A DNA stretch of 64,000 nt from the NCBI GenBank assembly GCA_000350305.1, contig CP002916.1, positions 744,001-808,000 on the forward strand, written 5' to 3'. The stretch's first letter is position 1; each line of letters starts with the position of its first letter. The position numbers were made by a program, and so were the translations under genes. This document shows positions 1-8,688 of the stretch, piece after piece. Source of the stretch: Thermoplasmatales archaeon BRNA1 (GTDB lineage: Archaea; Thermoplasmatota; Thermoplasmata; Methanomassiliicoccales; Methanomethylophilaceae). Below the pieces are notes generated by a model that was not told the DNA's origin, searched no databases, and was given only the letters and a program-made list of their open reading frames with translations.

Positions 1-597
1 TTATTGACTGAAGAATGGAAAAAATACGTTGGCCTTCAATCGGAAGCCGAAGAGATCGATGTACAAATCGAATCCATATTCGAAGAACTTGATGAATCTT
101 GGATCGAAGCAAATCCTGAACTATTCAATGATGATTGTACGAAATTTGATAACGCTAGTGTGAAAAAATACGGCAATCAGATGAAAAAAGAGTCTTTGGA
201 GGAGGATTCTCCAGAATATCAGGTAAGGGAAGTTTCTAAATTGCTTGAGAAGAAAGCAGCCTTATCTAAACAAACAAAACTCAAGAAAGAAGAATTGGAC
301 AAGGCTGTAAAAGTAGCGGTGGAAGGGCTTACACCCGAGAAAGAGAAAGAACTTCTGACTAGTAAATGGGTTTCACCAATAATGACTCAATTGAATGCCC
401 TGGACAAAGAACCTATTGAGTCTTTCATCAATAAGGTTACTTACCTCTCCTCGAAATACGAACACCCTCTGGAAGAAACATTCAGACTAATTGATGAAGC
501 CGAACGCGGTTTGCTTTCTCAATTAGAATCCCTCGAATCGAGTGGCCCAGATGCCGAGGCAATTGATACTTTGATTAATTTATTGAAGAGGGAATGA
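1..597 (+). CDS. hsdM: Type I restriction-modification methyltransferase subunit HsdM, C-terminal fragment
   Basis: The reading frame is open at the left edge, so only the C-terminal ~198 residues are present and the catalytic SAM-binding and NPPY motifs lie outside the window. What is seen is a charged, helical region rich in Glu and Lys, as expected of the HsdM tail that contacts HsdS. Identity rests on position: hsdS begins one base after the TGA stop, and hsdR follows, which is the usual hsdM-S-R order. HsdM methylates adenine in the site chosen by HsdS and protects host DNA. The DNA is clearly AT-richer than sequence after 7.4 kb, which suggests horizontal acquisition. Confidence 0.8.
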   Translation, partial: LLTEEWKKYVGLQSEAEEIDVQIESIFEELDESWIEANPELFNDDCTKFDNASVKKYGNQMKKESLEEDSPEYQVREVSKLLEKKAALSKQTKLKKEELDKAVKVAVEGLTPEKEKELLTSKWVSPIMTQLNALDKEPIESFINKVTYLSSKYEHPLEETFRLIDEAERGLLSQLESLESSGPDAEAIDTLINLLKRE

Positions 598-598
598 G

Positions 599-1744
599 AT
601 GCCAGATAAGAAAAATCCCAGAATTAGATTTAAAAAACGTTCTAAGGATTGGGAAGAAGTTCGTTTTTCTGATCTTTACAAAAAGGCCATCCAAAAAAAC
701 GATTTGAGTTATGGGAATCGCGACATCATTTCAGTTGCGAAGATGTACTATGCTCCAAACCCGTTGATAACAAACAGCGAGTATCTGAAGACTTACAACA
801 TTTTTCTTCGCGGAGATATTGCATTCGAAGGAAATCGCAGCAAACATTTTGCTTACGGCAGATTCGTCGAGAATACAATCGGGGACGGAATCGTATCCCA
901 TGTTTTCAAAGTATTTCGTCCCATCAAAGATTATGATATACAATACTGGAAATATGCAATCAACGAGGAAAAAGTAATGCGCTCGCGTTTGGCTGTCTCC
1001 ACTAAATCATCTACAATGATGAAAGAGCTTCGCGATCAAGATTTCCTTAATGAAAAAATAATGATTCCTCCGGTCGATGAACAACGTCGCATAGGGCAGC
1101 TGTTAAGCACACTTGATCAACTAATCGAGTATTATGAAAGAGCAATTCCGATTTTTGATAGATTAGTCAAATCAAGATTTATCGAAATGTTCTCAGATCA
1201 TGAGAAAGTCCCACTAACAGAGTTGGCAACAATCAATATGGGTCAATCTCCGGAATCGTCAACTTACAACGACCAGGGTATTGGGATGCCTTTTTACCAG
1301 GGTAAAACGGAGTTTACAGATACGTTTGTAGAGGTCAAAACGTATTGTAGCGACCCTAAAAAAGTAGCAAAACCGATGGACATCCTGATGTCTGTACGCG
1401 CGCCTGTCGGTGCTGTCAATTTAACTAGCCAGGAATGTTGCATAGGCAGAGGTTTAGCTGCAATAACTCCAAAAAATGGCCTTGCAGATGTGTGGTTCTT
1501 GTTCAATGCCCTGAAAACAATGGAACAACAAATATCTGATCTTGGTGTGGGCAGTACTTTCAAAGCAATCAATAAAGAGGATATGAAGAAAATCAAGATT
1601 CCACTTGCACCTCTTGATTTGCAAACTCAGTTTTCATCCTTTGTCAACCAGGTCGATAAATCGAAATTTATGTTTATGACCAAACTCCAAAACTTAAGAA
1701 ATATCAAAGAATCTATGATTGAAGCGTTATTGATGGTACAATGA
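599..1744 (+). CDS. hsdS: Type I restriction-modification specificity subunit HsdS
   Basis: A 381-residue protein with the two-half HsdS architecture: a target-recognition domain (about 1-155), a conserved helical spacer (about 156-205, containing VDEQRRIGQLLSTLDQLI), a second recognition domain (about 206-335), and a second spacer at the C-terminus. HsdS reads the bipartite DNA site and holds HsdM and HsdR together. The start ATG sits one base after the hsdM TGA, so translation is probably coupled. Length and layout are normal, and no break is seen. The two target domains differ from each other, implying an asymmetric site. Confidence 0.9.
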   Translation: MPDKKNPRIRFKKRSKDWEEVRFSDLYKKAIQKNDLSYGNRDIISVAKMYYAPNPLITNSEYLKTYNIFLRGDIAFEGNRSKHFAYGRFVENTIGDGIVSHVFKVFRPIKDYDIQYWKYAINEEKVMRSRLAVSTKSSTMMKELRDQDFLNEKIMIPPVDEQRRIGQLLSTLDQLIEYYERAIPIFDRLVKSRFIEMFSDHEKVPLTELATINMGQSPESSTYNDQGIGMPFYQGKTEFTDTFVEVKTYCSDPKKVAKPMDILMSVRAPVGAVNLTSQECCIGRGLAAITPKNGLADVWFLFNALKTMEQQISDLGVGSTFKAINKEDMKKIKIPLAPLDLQTQFSSFVNQVDKSKFMFMTKLQNLRNIKESMIEALLMVQ

Positions 1745-1759: not shown

Positions 1760-4700
1760 ATGACTGACTACTACAAAGAAGAATCCGAGTTTGAAGAGGA
1801 CGTTATATCATGTCTTCAAAAATATGGTTGGGAAAAAAGAAGTACTCAAGTACAAAGACGAGAAACAATTAATCGACAATTGGGCCACGATTCTTTTTGA
1901 AAACAACCGTGACATCGATCGCTTAAACGATTGCCCCTTGACAGAAGGTGAAAAGAAACAACTTATGCAAATGGTTAAGAGCAAAGGTTCTCCATTTTTA
2001 CTGAATAAGTTAGTTAACGGGAGAACATTATCAATCCAGAGAGATAATGAGAAGGATAAACTCCACTACGGAAAAACCGTTAGTTTAAGCATTTATGATC
2101 GGAATCAAATTGCAGGCGGGAAGAGTAGATACCAGATTGCCCAGCAGCCACTTTTTATTCCCGAATCGGAGATGGATAGGAAGCGTCGTGGAGATCTCAC
2201 TCTGTTGATTAACGGAATGCCAGTCATTCACATCGAATTAAAAAAGAGCGGAATTCCAGTTAATCAAGCTGTAAATCAAATACGCAAATATCGCGATGAA
2301 GGGAAGTTCGAAGGTCTGTTCTCGTTAATTCAGGTATTTGTTGCAATGACTCCTGAGGATCATCTTTATTTTGCCAATCCGGGATTATCAGAGTTTAATC
2401 CTAAATTCTTCTACAGATGGGCAGATGCAGAAAATAAAATTTGTGCTGATTGGAAAGAAGTTGTGCAGAATCTTCTGTTTATTCCCATGGCTCACAAACT
2501 TGTCGGATTTTATACTGTCCCAGATAAGAGTGATAAAAAACTCAAGGTTCTGCGCAGTTATCAGATCTTCGCAGTTGAAAAAATATCCAGTGCTCTAGAT
2601 GTTGCACATTGGACTCGTGCTGAAAGGCGTGGGGGGTATGTATTCCACACCACGGGGTCCGGAAAGACACTTACTAGTTTCAAAGCCGCATCTCTGGTTG
2701 CCAGTGATGGAAAGGTGGACAAATCTCTATTCTTAGCTGACAGGAAAGAGTTGGGATTTCAGACGCTTAACGAATACCAGAATTTCGCTTCTGGTATGAT
2801 TGCAGTTCAGGATACTGAAGACACTGTAGAGTTATATACGAAGCTGAAAAGCAACAATATAGAGGACAAACTGATTGTCACTTCAATTCAAAAAATGGCT
2901 CTTTTGTCCAATGATTATGGGCACAATCCTGAATTTTCAACGATTTCTTCCAAACGTATAGCCATCATCGTTGATGAGTGTCATCGTTCGACTTTTGGAA
3001 AAATGCTTCGCGATATCGAAGATGCGTTGCCAGTGGCTAAATATTTTGGTTTTTCAGGAACACCAATTTATGACGAAAACAATAAAGATGGTGGAACAAC
3101 AAGTGATTTGTTCGGTGAAGAACTATGTAAATACACTATTACAGACGGGCTAAGAGATGGAAATGTTCTTGCTTTTGATCTTCGTATGGAAGCATTTGAC
3201 GAAAAATCTACTCGGGTTGCTGTAGCATTAAATGAATGTAAAGCGAAATCTGAGTTAGAAGCACTTAGTGATCCAGAAAAGAAACGTGTATTTTTGAAAT
3301 GGACAGATCGTGCACAAACTACCATGGTGGAAGTTGAAAAAAAGATTCCAAAAACTCAGTATGAAGAACCAAAATACTATGAGAGTGTTGTCGACAATGT
3401 ATTGAAAGATTGGATTTCAATCAGTTTTGCTAACAAATTCCATGCAATTTTTGCTGCTTCATCGATTCCAGAAGCAATCGATTATTATAGATTGTTCAAG
3501 AAAAATGCTCCACAATTGAAGATTACCGCTTTGTTTGATGAACATGATGGGAATGAGCAATTTTCCCCCACCAAGGTCAAAGCTATCAAGGAGATTCTGG
3601 AGGATTACAACGATACATTTGTGAAATCATTTAGACCTGAAAAGTACGAATTATTCAAAAAAGATGTCAACATGCGTTTGGCTCACAAAGAAGATTACGA
3701 AGGAATTGACAACAACCCTGAGAAACAACTCGATCTAGTGATTGTTGTTGATATGTTACTCACAGGATTTGATTCAAAATGGGTAAACGCCCTATATCTG
3801 GATAAGATGCTCGAAAATGAGCATATTGTTCAAGCCTTTTCAAGAACCAACAGAGTACTCGATGATGACAAACAATTTGGAGTCATCAAATATTATCGCT
3901 ATCCATATACCATGGAAAAGAGGATTGAAAAAGCTTTCAAACTATATTCAGGAGAAAGAGCCTCAGAAATGTTTGTGTCCAAGTTGCCTGAGCGCTTGGA
4001 GAGTATAAACAATTACTACAAAATGATCAAGTCTCTTTTCGATAGTGAAAATATCACCTATTTTGAAAGGTTACCCAAATCTGAACAATCCAAAATTAGT
4101 TTCAGTAAATTGTTCCCTGAGTTGAGAAGAAGTGTTCACTCTGCGTTTGTTCAAGATTTCAGATGGGACAAAAAAGATAGAAAATATGTGTTCGAAAATG
4201 GCAAAATCATTATTGTGGATTTGACCGAGGAGATATACAAAATCTTGGAAACACGCTACAAGGAATTATTCCCAAGAACACGCGGTCCGAATCCACCAAT
4301 ACCTCCATATGACCTTGATACCTCGCTTACCGAGTATTCAACGGAAAGGGTAGATTTCAAATATATGAATTCAAGGTTTGAGATATACCGCAAGGCCATC
4401 CAATCTGATACAGATCCTGAGACAGTTGAAGAATTCTTAGCTGAGTTGTCACGCTCATTTGCTAGCTTGTCCGAGACAGATCAAGGATTTGCTACCAAGA
4501 TTGTAAGTGACTTGTCCTCTGGACAATTGTATGTTTCTGATGATGAAACCTTCCAGGAATTATTAATTCGCTATAAGAATAAGAAATTAACAGACGAAAT
4601 TAAACGTATTTCTGAGAGTATCGGTATCGATGAAAGCCAACTCAGATTGATTATGTTAAGTAATCCCACCGAACAAAATCTCAATGAATACAATCGTTTC

Positions 4701-4847
4701 GACAAAATGGTAGATGGAATTGATTTGGTTAAAGCCAAGACTTTCCTAGAGGATAAAATAAAGAGTTCTATACCGCCACATAAAGTAAAATCTAAGGCAA
4801 GAACCTATTTGCGGGAGTACATCCTTAATGGCGGATTTGATGCATAA
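1760..4847 (+). CDS. hsdR: Type I restriction endonuclease subunit HsdR, frameshifted near the N-terminus
   Basis: HsdR is the ATP-dependent translocase and nuclease of the complex. From the in-frame ATG at 1791 (1018 codons) one sees a nuclease core with D135 and E149-x-K151, the Walker A TTGSGKT at 287-293, and the DECH box at 395-398. However, the HsdR N-terminus is encoded in another frame from ATG 1760: MTDYYKEESEFEEDVISCLQ. That frame runs into the A6 run at 1833-1838 and stops at TGA 1898. Removing one A gives a continuous YGWEKEVLKY junction as in intact HsdR proteins. This is a sequencing error, a phase-variable tract or a recent mutation. Initiation at 1791 would lose only the extreme N-terminus but adds a foreign leader. 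Confidence 0.85.
1833..1838 (+). repeat. A6 homopolymer at the hsdR frameshift
   Basis: Six A residues preceded by GG and followed by G. The upstream frame reads W-E-K across it, and the downstream frame resumes at GAA 1839, so exactly one base is surplus. This is the only change needed to restore a full-length HsdR. Confidence 0.75.
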
Positions 4848-4870: not shown

Positions 4871-5389
4871 ATGAAAATGGAAAACATCGTTTGTTCGGGT
4901 TCTTTTAATCAGGAACTCGATCTCAATTTGTTGTCTTCCAGATGTCCATATGTCCAATACAAGAAAAATCGTTATCCTGGTGCGTATCTAAAATTTGACG
5001 GCCATTCGGTAACGATCTACCGTACTGGAAAATACATCATGCCAGGAATGAGATCCTTCGAGGATATTCGACAATCTTTTGATAAAGTAAAGGAAATCCT
5101 TTCACCTTATGCCGATACATCGAAATTCACTGCACCAGTAGTTAGGAATATAGTGTGTTCATCTAACATAGAACACGAATTGAATCTAAGTACCATATAT
5201 TTTGAATTGGTATCAAGGGACCTAGATGTGGTGTATGAACCAGAGGCGTTTCCGGGAATGATCCTGAAGATACAAGATTGCACCTACAATGTGTTCTCAT
5301 CTGGGAAGTTCTTAATCCTAGGTTGTACCTCCGAATTAGAAGCGAAGAATGCTGATGATTATTTCCTGAATCTGATTGATACACTCTAA
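4871..5389 (+). CDS. Divergent TATA-binding protein (TBP) paralogue
   Basis: The 172 residues form two direct TBP repeats. Repeat 1 (about 5-77) has IVCSGSFNQELDLN...YPG...TGK. Repeat 2 (about 93-170) has IVCSSNIEHELNLS...YEPEAFPGMILKI...VFSSGKFLILG. The four positions whose aromatic side chains kink DNA in TBP are Y35, Y50, F127 and F142, so all remain aromatic. Archaeal TBP is usually about 180 residues and more conserved, so this is a diverged accessory copy rather than the housekeeping factor. It follows hsdR by 23 bases on the same strand and ends 4 bases from the convergent DUF262 gene. A role in expressing or regulating the defence island is inference. ATG 4877 is an alternative start. 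Confidence 0.8.
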   Translation: MKMENIVCSGSFNQELDLNLLSSRCPYVQYKKNRYPGAYLKFDGHSVTIYRTGKYIMPGMRSFEDIRQSFDKVKEILSPYADTSKFTAPVVRNIVCSSNIEHELNLSTIYFELVSRDLDVVYEPEAFPGMILKIQDCTYNVFSSGKFLILGCTSELEAKNADDYFLNLIDTL

Positions 5390-5393
5390 AAAT

Positions 5394-7247
5394 TCACTCT
5401 TCTTGCTTACTCAAATCCTCTATTTTCTCGATTCCCCAAATTTTAGTTGCCGTGGAGGAGTAAAGGTTCTGACGATAGATTATCTCCGCTTTCGAAAAAA
5501 TATCCAATGAGTGATAGTCGAGCCCGGATTCCTCGATAAACTTTTTGAAACGCGGGTTGTTCTCATAAAAACCTTCGCAGAATGTTTTTGCGAGTATATT
5601 TTCTCCAGCGTAGGTAATCAATTTAGTGCCGTAAGGCTGATCCTGAATACTGCGATTCTTATCTGCCGGCAAGAGGATGAGATTACCAAACCATGAACGA
5701 TATGTTTGGAAATCATTTTCATCAGTAAACCCGTCCCTGTTAGAATCGAAATCATCAGCCAGTACATGTTCGATATCAAAGGTGTTCTTCTTGCTTGGCA
5801 CCAGATATTTGACAATGTTAGCATTGGGATCATCACAGCTGCATTCCAAATAGTAGGTGATGTGAGCAAGCATGTATGGGATGAATCTCTTGGTGAACAT
5901 GTTCAGATGAAGTTCTGAAATGCCCTCTAGTTTGAATTCCATAGCATTCAACGAATCTGTAAGGAACCAAGCCAATTCTTCGACATTTTTGTTGCGGATT
6001 TCTTTTGTTATGTTGAATATCGCATTCTTGATGGAGGAGTATGAAAAGTCCTTGTAATTTACCCCACGACGAATCACATACAGGTTGATGAAGCAAGATA
6101 CCATCCTGATCTTCTTATTCACTATATCAATCGGATCGTCACTTGATATCGATGCTAAGATTACCTGGTTTTGGAGAGTAAAATTCAATTTAGCATTGTA
6201 GAACATCCATTCGTATGACTTATCAAATGATTCTGAATAGTTTTTAAGGCGAATGAATAGGTCTGAATAAAATTTGAATTCCTTCATGATGAAATTCGTA
6301 AATGATTGAGGTTTCGACAATCCGATTTTTTCCGTGTTGTCTCTTACCCATTTGTGGAATTCTGTACCGATAAGATCGAAGTCTTCCGGTTTTGCACCTT
6401 TCTTTCCTTCACGGATGGTCACAGCATATTGGGAACGGAGCCAAGTTTTGATGAATTCGTCATCAGCGTCCTTTTCTTCAAGATTTCTCTTGAGGAGGCT
6501 GTTCACCTGTTGTTTCCATAATTCATCAGCTTTAGCACGATCAGAATCTTCTATTATTTCGGACAATAGGTACCCTTTGAGCATTTCTGTCGGGGTGAGT
6601 GATAAGCCCCTATCATTCATAGTGACGAATACCTTATGAGCATCCTGTTCTGAAGTAACTGTAATCTCGATGAATATCAGGTGATTCTGAATCCAATCCA
6701 GGAAGAATGGCAGTATTTCCTTTGTTTGAATCCTCAAGTCAAGTAGGGATTCAATATCGTGATAACGTTCAATGATATTGGTAACGCTGTTATTGTTTCC
6801 CGGATCTGTGTAATCTTCCCCCGTGTATAGGGCATTCATACATTCGTTACGGGCCTCGTCATTGATGTTGAATGTTTTCTCCCCATATTGCTCGGAGTAG
6901 ATTAGTGGCGACAGATCAGTATAGTCAGGACATTCGGACTTTCTGAGATGGTTTAGGTAAATCAAAAGAAGAGTCAGTGAGGTAAGCCTTTGCTGGCCAT
7001 CTATTATTGCTCTCTCTGAGTCTCTGGTAACAATTACACTTCCCATGTAGTAATTGCCATATTGGGCAACCTGTTTACGAACATCATCAGGTTTGTAATT
7101 GTCGAAGAATTCATCAGTTATATCTTCAAGAAGCTCTTTGATTTGTTTCTTGCCCCAGCGGTATTCCCTTTGGTAATAGTGAATTACATACTTTTTGTTG
7201 AAAAGAAGCTGACTAAGTGATTGATCGTTTCCTTTAATCTCCTTCAT
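5394..7247 (-). CDS. DUF262/DUF1524 protein (GmrSD-like restriction nuclease)
   Basis: A 617-residue protein with the DUF262 ParB-like nucleotide-binding signature IDGQQRLTS at 82-90 and, near the C-terminus, a DUF1524 HNH-type region with IEHV at about 493-496 and GNLILLP at about 517-523. This is the arrangement of type IV, modification-dependent enzymes such as GmrSD fused into one chain, which use nucleotide hydrolysis to cut foreign modified DNA. It lies tail to tail with the TBP-like gene in the AT-rich island, so defence is the most likely role. On the minus strand a TATA-like GATTAATAG lies about 35 bases before the ATG. Which modification it senses cannot be read from sequence. Confidence 0.85.
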   Translation of the reverse strand: MKEIKGNDQSLSQLLFNKKYVIHYYQREYRWGKKQIKELLEDITDEFFDNYKPDDVRKQVAQYGNYYMGSVIVTRDSERAIIDGQQRLTSLTLLLIYLNHLRKSECPDYTDLSPLIYSEQYGEKTFNINDEARNECMNALYTGEDYTDPGNNNSVTNIIERYHDIESLLDLRIQTKEILPFFLDWIQNHLIFIEITVTSEQDAHKVFVTMNDRGLSLTPTEMLKGYLLSEIIEDSDRAKADELWKQQVNSLLKRNLEEKDADDEFIKTWLRSQYAVTIREGKKGAKPEDFDLIGTEFHKWVRDNTEKIGLSKPQSFTNFIMKEFKFYSDLFIRLKNYSESFDKSYEWMFYNAKLNFTLQNQVILASISSDDPIDIVNKKIRMVSCFINLYVIRRGVNYKDFSYSSIKNAIFNITKEIRNKNVEELAWFLTDSLNAMEFKLEGISELHLNMFTKRFIPYMLAHITYYLECSCDDPNANIVKYLVPSKKNTFDIEHVLADDFDSNRDGFTDENDFQTYRSWFGNLILLPADKNRSIQDQPYGTKLITYAGENILAKTFCEGFYENNPRFKKFIEESGLDYHSLDIFSKAEIIYRQNLYSSTATKIWGIEKIEDLSKQEE

Positions 7248-7869: not shown

Positions 7870-8688
7870 ATGTATATGCCATACGTCATCGTCATCTCCT
7901 GCGTAACCACGGAGACGGTCATGGTCTCCTCACCTTCCATCTTCTACAAAGCCGACGAGATCCACCTGTTCAGATACACCCGCGATCCCGGGACCGCCAG
8001 GGCGAAGCTCTACGAGGACCATTACAGAAGCGTATGCAACCAGATCCGCGATTCCCTCCCCGATTGCAAGATCACGGAACATTCCGACGACCCCGTGTAC
8101 GACCTCCCCAGGATGGTCAGGGGACTGAGCATCCTGTACTCGCAGATCATGAAGGAGCACCCGGACGCCGAGGTCCATGCCAATCTCTCCTCCGGGCCGA
8201 GCGAGTTCATCGCCTCCCTGGGGATATTCGCCTTCCTCAATCCCGACGTAAAGCTGTTCAAGGTGCCCACCAAACGCTATACCGTCGACGCCGAGGAGTT
8301 CATGCTGCTGCATTACGACGAGAAGGGGGAGGCCGTAGGACTGTCCAGGGAGGTATACGAGCCGAAACCCGTTCCCACGGTCACATTGGACGGCCCCGAC
8401 GAGGTTCTTGTAAGGTCATTGAGAATCTACGGCCAGCTTCTGGACAAGGGCGAGGAACCCACCGGCCCGGCCATGGTGTCCCTGCTGGAAGAGAAGGGAC
8501 TGTGGATCTGCTCCAGGAAGAACTCCGGGAAGAGGTGCGGCGAGCACACCCTGGACAGGAACAACTACTACCGCAACTACGCCAACATCTGGAAGATGCT
8601 GGGGTGGATCGAGGATAAGGATCTGAGGGAGTACCCCCCGCTCACCGAGGAAGGAAAGGCGGTCATCGAGATGTTCTACCCGGAGTGA
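7870..8688 (+). CDS. CARF-like / DUF6293 (HFX_2341 family) winged-helix protein
   Basis: A 272-residue protein. The N-terminal half (about 1-150) resembles the Rossmann-like ligand domain of the HFX_2341/DUF6293 family, with the pattern DLPRMVRGLSILYSQIMKEHP followed by a strand and the glycine/serine turn NLSSGPSEFIASLG. That turn corresponds to the nucleotide-contacting loop of CARF domains. The C-terminal 80 residues look like a winged helix (MVSLLEEKGL...TLDRNNYYRNYANIWKMLGWIE). Such proteins bind ligands, often cyclic oligonucleotides, and control transcription. No CRISPR array or cas gene is visible here, so it would be an orphan. The start may be ATG 7870 or 7876. An oligo-T stretch follows the stop. 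Confidence 0.55.
   Translation: MYMPYVIVISCVTTETVMVSSPSIFYKADEIHLFRYTRDPGTARAKLYEDHYRSVCNQIRDSLPDCKITEHSDDPVYDLPRMVRGLSILYSQIMKEHPDAEVHANLSSGPSEFIASLGIFAFLNPDVKLFKVPTKRYTVDAEEFMLLHYDEKGEAVGLSREVYEPKPVPTVTLDGPDEVLVRSLRIYGQLLDKGEEPTGPAMVSLLEEKGLWICSRKNSGKRCGEHTLDRNNYYRNYANIWKMLGWIEDKDLREYPPLTEEGKAVIEMFYPE

Follow-up and report, generated by a model that had tools for sequence, protein, structure and literature searches.

Where archaea possess several TATA-binding proteins (TBPs), the set is explained as sigma-factor-like promoter switching. Small regulator genes are known within restriction-modification (R-M) cassettes; the controller (C) proteins of type II R-M systems are helix-turn-helix (HTH) dimers with a proposed timing role. 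To our knowledge, no R-M or BREX system has an immune-specific basal transcription factor. The TbpC-type paralogues of haloarchaea have lost the N-terminal Phe pair of TBP but retain the C-lobe pair (PMC4230888). Their genes are easily deleted and gave no transcript in laboratory cultures of Hbt. salinarum PHH1 (PMC4230888, PMC2121645); because of these three properties they are considered possibly non-functional orphans (PMC4230888, PMC2121645). TBPs are also found in the defence operons of TOTE and TALON conflict systems, which comprise TPR, OB, TBP and effector components (Aravind et al. 2022, as cited in PMC12458937). TALON is reported mainly from Chloroflexota and with a TPR-CSD gene. A link between TBPs and R-M or BREX systems is not reported in the TbpC papers or in surveys of archaeal R-M and immunity in the open-licence literature; an earlier report elsewhere is possible.

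Here we describe a family of archaeal TBP paralogues, named dTBP, which is almost always found in or beside methylation-based defence operons and includes the haloarchaeal TbpC type. One member lies in Thermoplasmatales archaeon BRNA1, in the 64,000-nucleotide stretch of CP002916.1 analysed here (the window; positions 744,001 to 808,000). A sequence-only reading had described it as a TBP paralogue in a type I restriction island, located between hsdR and a GmrSD-like gene in AT-rich DNA. The Pfam TBP match and the hsdM-S-R neighbours agree with this description and the layout is the same; the GC content of the island is 37-40%, compared with 55-61% further along the window. The genes, in window coordinates, are:

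1-597, plus strand: 3' end of hsdM, the type I R-M methylase; the gene starts outside the window at G000:C1:742042 (851-aa ORF, L036:7043-9598; TIGR00497 hsdM 1e-93; PADLOC MTase_I 7.7e-285)
599-1744, plus strand: hsdS, specificity subunit (Pfam Methylase_S 4e-34)
1791-4847, plus strand: hsdR, restriction subunit (TIGR00348 hsdR 4.4e-96; T1R_D3-like 7.5e-45; HSDR_N 1.3e-17)
4871-5389, plus strand: TBP paralogue of the defence operon, closing the hsdM-S-R unit (PF00352 2.4e-34, two lobes; saddle model; Tyr/Tyr N lobe, Phe/Phe C lobe, YEPE motif kept)
5394-7247, minus strand: convergent gene for a GmrSD-like DUF262/HNH nuclease (GmrSD_N 4.7e-32; GmrSD_C 2.7e-8)

The TBP gene encodes 172 aa from an ATG start and begins 23 bp after the hsdR stop codon. 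Just past the GmrSD-like gene, at 7870-8688 on the plus strand, is a gene encoding a CARF-domain protein (PADLOC CARF3 3e-120), which is possibly a separate cyclic-oligonucleotide-linked element. GmrSD-like DUF262 genes adjoin the TBP/R-M unit in unrelated archaea (the window, L035, L203, L211 and L212).

The window gene is a genuine second TBP, two-lobed and with a saddle fold. It matches PF00352 in two repeats with 117.5 bits (cut-off 22.9), and its E value of about 2e-34 rules out a chance resemblance. Among solved structures, the best phmmer matches are the TBPs of P. woesei and S. acidocaldarius (~1e-17). An AlphaFold model built on a five-sequence alignment predicts the TBP saddle (pLDDT 89.3; TM 0.8-0.87 to solved TBPs). 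The profile search and structural model proposed in the sequence-only reading thus support the assignment. The lack of a saddle, or of any other TBP in the genome, had been named as an objection; the saddle is predicted, and the single-contig BRNA1 genome (1.46 Mb) has a canonical TBP at C1:907655-908176, which rules out the window gene as its sole TBP. Pfam and residue alignment confirm that the protein has two TBP repeats and that its four kinking positions are aromatic: Y35 and Y50 in the N lobe, where Phe is replaced by Tyr, and F127 and F142 in the C lobe. It is otherwise as divergent as had been described: identity to the canonical copy is ~36%, and its scores miss all NCBIfam TBP cut-offs (at best 115.7 of 181 bits). 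It is not the main copy of the cell. It keeps a Glu pair in the C lobe (E123, E125) at the positions which contact TFB (PMC7221094). BRNA1 encodes a single TFB, so the paralogue must share it if it acts in transcription.

Relatives were sought by TBP protein similarity alone, with genomic context unused, in a partial sample of genomes from two archaeal phyla and in plasmids. Family searches identified the R-M and BREX neighbours at some loci; at the others they were recognised from sequence similarity or from the deposited annotation. Many loci come from metagenome assemblies, and the stops and frameshifts in G018 and G082 may be errors. The survey suggested earlier, for recurrence beside R-M genes, produced many independent cases with type I R-M, type ISP and BREX. 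Among 147 genomes of the order, the only close relative of the window TBP is in G082 (54% identity). A split hsdR of the EcoAI type lies 215 bp downstream of it, and beyond this come hsdM, hsdS, a recombinase and a second hsdS in inverted orientation; a GmrSD-like gene is on the other flank of the TBP gene. The R-M proteins of these two loci are just ~21-26% identical across alignable stretches, so the TBP stays while the R-M system differs. At L035:5325-9058 in G082, two opposed hsdS genes flank a tyrosine recombinase, an arrangement which resembles an invertible specificity locus. G087 has a truncated relic (54% identical) adjoining a transposase-like gene.

Inspection of all extra TBP copies in the order revealed a second clade (clade B), with two other strongly divergent TBPs beside defence genes. 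In Methanomassiliicoccus UBA345 an intact copy lies just upstream of a type ISP enzyme; in Methanomassiliicoccus UBA6 (G018) a copy with two stops lies just upstream of an intact hsdR-M-S. The latter system may work without a dTBP, or the copy may hold assembly errors. A profile search of genome contigs with a two-row alignment gave no matches; with clade B, five loci were found. The TBP gene found by the clade B search in G540 is divergent from hsdR. In Methanoregula fen_80 it shares 4 bp with hsdS and 1 bp with hsdM; in BL5_bin.6 it is beside brxA-B-C. In the phylum of Methanoregula (345 genomes), seven genomes gave matches below 1e-37 and nothing else fell below 1e-22. The layouts there are hsdR-S-M-rnc-TBP, hsdM-S-R-TBP (14 bp gap), TBP-hsdM-S-R, and pglZ-brxL-TBP (34 bp gap); one of the TBP loci has no R-M. 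The profile of the window pair identified a third methanogen clade (clade C), whose neighbours are BREX, type I R-M, EVE-domain and DUF5655 genes, and G831, where two such TBPs lie beside hsdM-S-R. In Halobacteriota methanogens (L196-L202), clade C TBPs adjacent to BREX or R-M genes are accompanied by EVE-domain and DUF5655 nuclease-like genes, a hint that the three form an accessory module. The longest open frame met around a TBP domain (348 aa) is at G106:C16:22085-22549 (L063).

Haloarchaeal plasmids were searched with the TBP proteins of G831. A dTBP gene is found next to type I R-M on plasmids of Haloplanus aerogenes, Halobaculum magnesiiphilum, Halorientalis IM1011 and Halobacterium DL1, where it is annotated TATA-box-binding protein C. 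In Haloarcula halophila it is within a BREX operon, between a methylase gene and pglZ. It directly follows a methylase-helicase pair in Halorubrum lacusprofundi, Halolamina, Natronomonas marina and Halorientalis marina; on H. lacusprofundi pHLAC01 and in Halolamina the next gene is a convergent DUF262 gene, a layout identical to that of the window. Halobaculum roseum, Halorussus aquaticus and Haloferax lucentense have a dTBP beside DNA methylases. In Natribaculum breve it starts 30 bp after a 1379-aa ORF which matched none of the R-M/BREX queries and which, read by eye, resembles a restriction-modification enzyme. Two different family TBPs lie side by side at one type I R-M operon in L205 and L206 (the Haloplanus and Halobaculum plasmids) and in L203 (G831). 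In L205 and L206 the pair has one member from each main plasmid subfamily, and a SprT-like protease gene separates the pair from hsdR.

Halobacterium NRC-1 pNRC100 also has a dTBP gene, after methylase and helicase genes, with an insertion sequence within the cluster. Its residues and the DL1 annotation indicate that this gene is probably TbpC itself. The insertion sequence, ISH27, separates two DNA methylase genes ahead of the helicase gene and the TbpC-type gene (L214:1-8540) and may explain the missing transcript.

The partner systems of dTBPs therefore comprise several subtypes of type I R-M, together with type ISP, BREX and methylase-helicase pairs. With plasmids left out and the window excluded, an R-M/BREX core gene is nearby at 16 of 19 dTBP loci but at none of the 68 other TBP loci with at least 8 kb of sequence (Fisher p 8e-15, although independence is incomplete, since G744 and G895 are almost the same). 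The association spans two phyla. At the three remaining dTBP loci (G962, G744 and G813) there is no R-M/BREX gene within 20 kb. Eight haloarchaeal plasmid TBPs with a Phe-Phe N lobe served as controls, and none has annotated R-M/BREX neighbours. Extra TBPs as such are thus not drawn to R-M genes: the 68 other loci, which include many extra copies, and the eight plasmid controls rule this out. The association bears on whether the paralogue could be a passenger, travelling with mobile islands and having no role in defence. Mosaic islands and relics, such as the G087 fragment and the G018 copy with stops, are what a passenger would leave, but the 16/19 against 0/68 distribution, the tight operonic overlaps and a signature conserved across two phyla make this reading highly improbable and we disfavour it. 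The recurrence of dTBPs in R-M and BREX operons suggests instead that these immune systems encode a transcription-start factor of their own.

In a tree of 55 TBPs, all 34 family rows fall together on the same side of a single branch (support 97/94); an earlier, smaller tree without the haloarchaeal plasmid rows was compatible with one or two origins. The family has a distinct N lobe. The second kinking position is Tyr in 21/21 dTBPs, compared with Phe in 17/17 other TBPs, and it is also Tyr in 14/14 haloarchaeal dTBPs. The first is Tyr in clades A and C (giving Tyr-Tyr) and has lost its aromatic residue in clade B. Central N-lobe residues are altered, with Val changed to Ile or Leu, and Thr replaced in clades A and C. 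The C-lobe Phe pair is retained in nearly all dTBPs, and the TFB-contact Glu pair is kept in 21/21 plus 13/14 haloarchaeal members (34/35 proteins). A conserved C lobe and a remodelled N lobe are the pattern expected of a TBP which recruits TFB and reads a different element.

We consider it an even proposition that the dTBP is a dedicated TBP whose DNA-reading lobe has changed and which recruits the host TFB to its own defence operon. The C lobe, with intact Phe and Glu pairs, would recruit host TFB and RNA polymerase as usual, and the remodelled N lobe would recognise another sequence in the downstream half of the TATA element. The defence cassette would in this way bring its own promoter-recognition factor. 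Transcription of the operon would depend on accumulated dTBP, giving autogenous, delayed expression like that of type II R-M controller proteins, and would be independent of host TBP. More tentatively, dTBP and host TFB may form a separate initiation pathway for the immune operon which is portable, independent of host TBP, and possibly responsive to infection.

The same residues can be read in other ways. If a dTBP occupied the TATA region of its own operon, it could act as an autogenous repressor or competitor, slowing or blocking canonical TBP and keeping the toxic restriction subunit low. With Tyr in place of Phe, DNA may be kinked less strongly, in keeping with repression, as is the loss of the first Phe in clade B; dTBP genes also often abut the R gene itself. 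In G540, the region between the divergent TBP and hsdR genes contains a perfect 11-bp inverted repeat, CGAAATGTCAT-N22-ATGACATTTCG (L167:3535-3578), which encloses a TATA-like stretch (p ~0.01). A pure blocker would not need the TFB-contact Glu pair, which almost every member keeps; the C-lobe Phe pair is kept as well, and we regard repression as rather unlikely. Alternatively, the saddle might bind or bend DNA beside HsdR, BrxL or a helicase, outside transcription, as a structural or sensing subunit of the defence complex; the TBP in TOTE systems may have a role of this kind. TBPs do occur in TOTE and TALON systems (PMC12458937), and dTBPs are co-operonic with enzymes, gene overlaps included (the overlap with the helicase gene is 4 bp in both H. 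lacusprofundi and NRC-1). However, R-M, ISP and BREX are enzymatically unrelated, leaving no constant single protein partner, and an effector subunit would not need the TFB-contact residues; this role seems improbable.

Promoter regions give modest support to the dedicated factor. Halorubrum and Halolamina share, without a mismatch, a 19-bp block, AGTCTAAGTAAAGACTATA, which precedes the first ATG of the methylase-helicase-TBP operon by exactly 31 bp; identity falls to 33% in the upstream flank and 53% in the downstream one. The block, a candidate promoter element, is also present in Natronomonas and in Halorientalis marina. Together with the kept Glu pair, this promoter-proximal block leads us to favour a promoter factor over a reader of bent DNA. 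Being palindromic, the block could also be the site of an ordinary dimeric regulator. No promoter motif shared across the methanogen loci was found, and some dTBP operons have an ordinary-looking TATA box, such as that of hsdR in G1001. These three points, the three loci without R-M/BREX genes, the possibly weaker kinking with Tyr and the UBA6 copy with stops count against a dedicated factor. A general promoter palindrome was also considered and is unsupported, inverted repeats being significant at just a few methanogen loci. One 26-bp palindrome, TTTCTTGATGACA/TGTCATCAACAAA, is upstream of the UBA345 TBP gene (L095:6189-6214) and has an ATGTCAT half-site in common with G540.

Archaeal viruses manipulate initiation and some encode TBPs. 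A dTBP could be a guard or substitute, which evades viral inhibitors of host TBP or acts as bait that reports them, so that the immune operon stays transcribed while a virus shuts off host initiation. The sporadic, mobile distribution of dTBPs in defence islands is compatible with this role, which we nevertheless rate as very unlikely. Viral contigs and phage genomes contained no close dTBP relative; three halovirus records (HRTV-9, HJTV-2) carry distant TBPs only, including genes at MZ334505.1 31376-31858 and MZ334513.1 31074-31598.

One widespread class of extra archaeal TBPs is thus tied to defence operons. If each dTBP drives the operon in which it lies, archaea possess a basal transcription factor specific to immunity, and a dedicated initiation pathway, if true, would explain a large part of the puzzling multiplicity of TBPs in haloarchaea and methanogens. 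The orphan TbpC-type genes would gain a concrete function which can be tested in the genetically tractable Halobacterium, Haloferax relatives and Halorubrum lacusprofundi. Tyr at the second N-lobe kinking position is a simple sequence marker for archaeal defence islands.

Compared with canonical archaeal TBP (PF00352; P. woesei, S. acidocaldarius and M. jannaschii structures), dTBPs share the two-lobe saddle, the C-lobe Phe pair, the central Asn and Val, and the TFB-contacting YEPE motif. They differ in the N lobe, which has Tyr-Tyr (or a lost aromatic plus Tyr) and replaced central Thr contacts, and in their defence-operon location; the window TBP has only ~36% identity to the canonical protein. 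Like the type II R-M C protein, it is encoded by a small gene in an R-M cassette, but it has the TBP fold and no HTH. The TOTE and TALON systems set a precedent for defence operons that encode a TBP; their partners differ from those of dTBPs (type I R-M, ISP and BREX), and scans of the genes around the window TBP and of key neighbours at other dTBP loci detected no TPR, OB or CSD partner. The TbpC type of Halobacterium belongs to the same tree group as the window TBP (the 97/94 branch), and in both the N-lobe Phe pair is replaced and the C-lobe pair kept. Whereas the TbpC type is haloarchaeal, the window member comes from a distant methanogen lineage and lies beside type I R-M.
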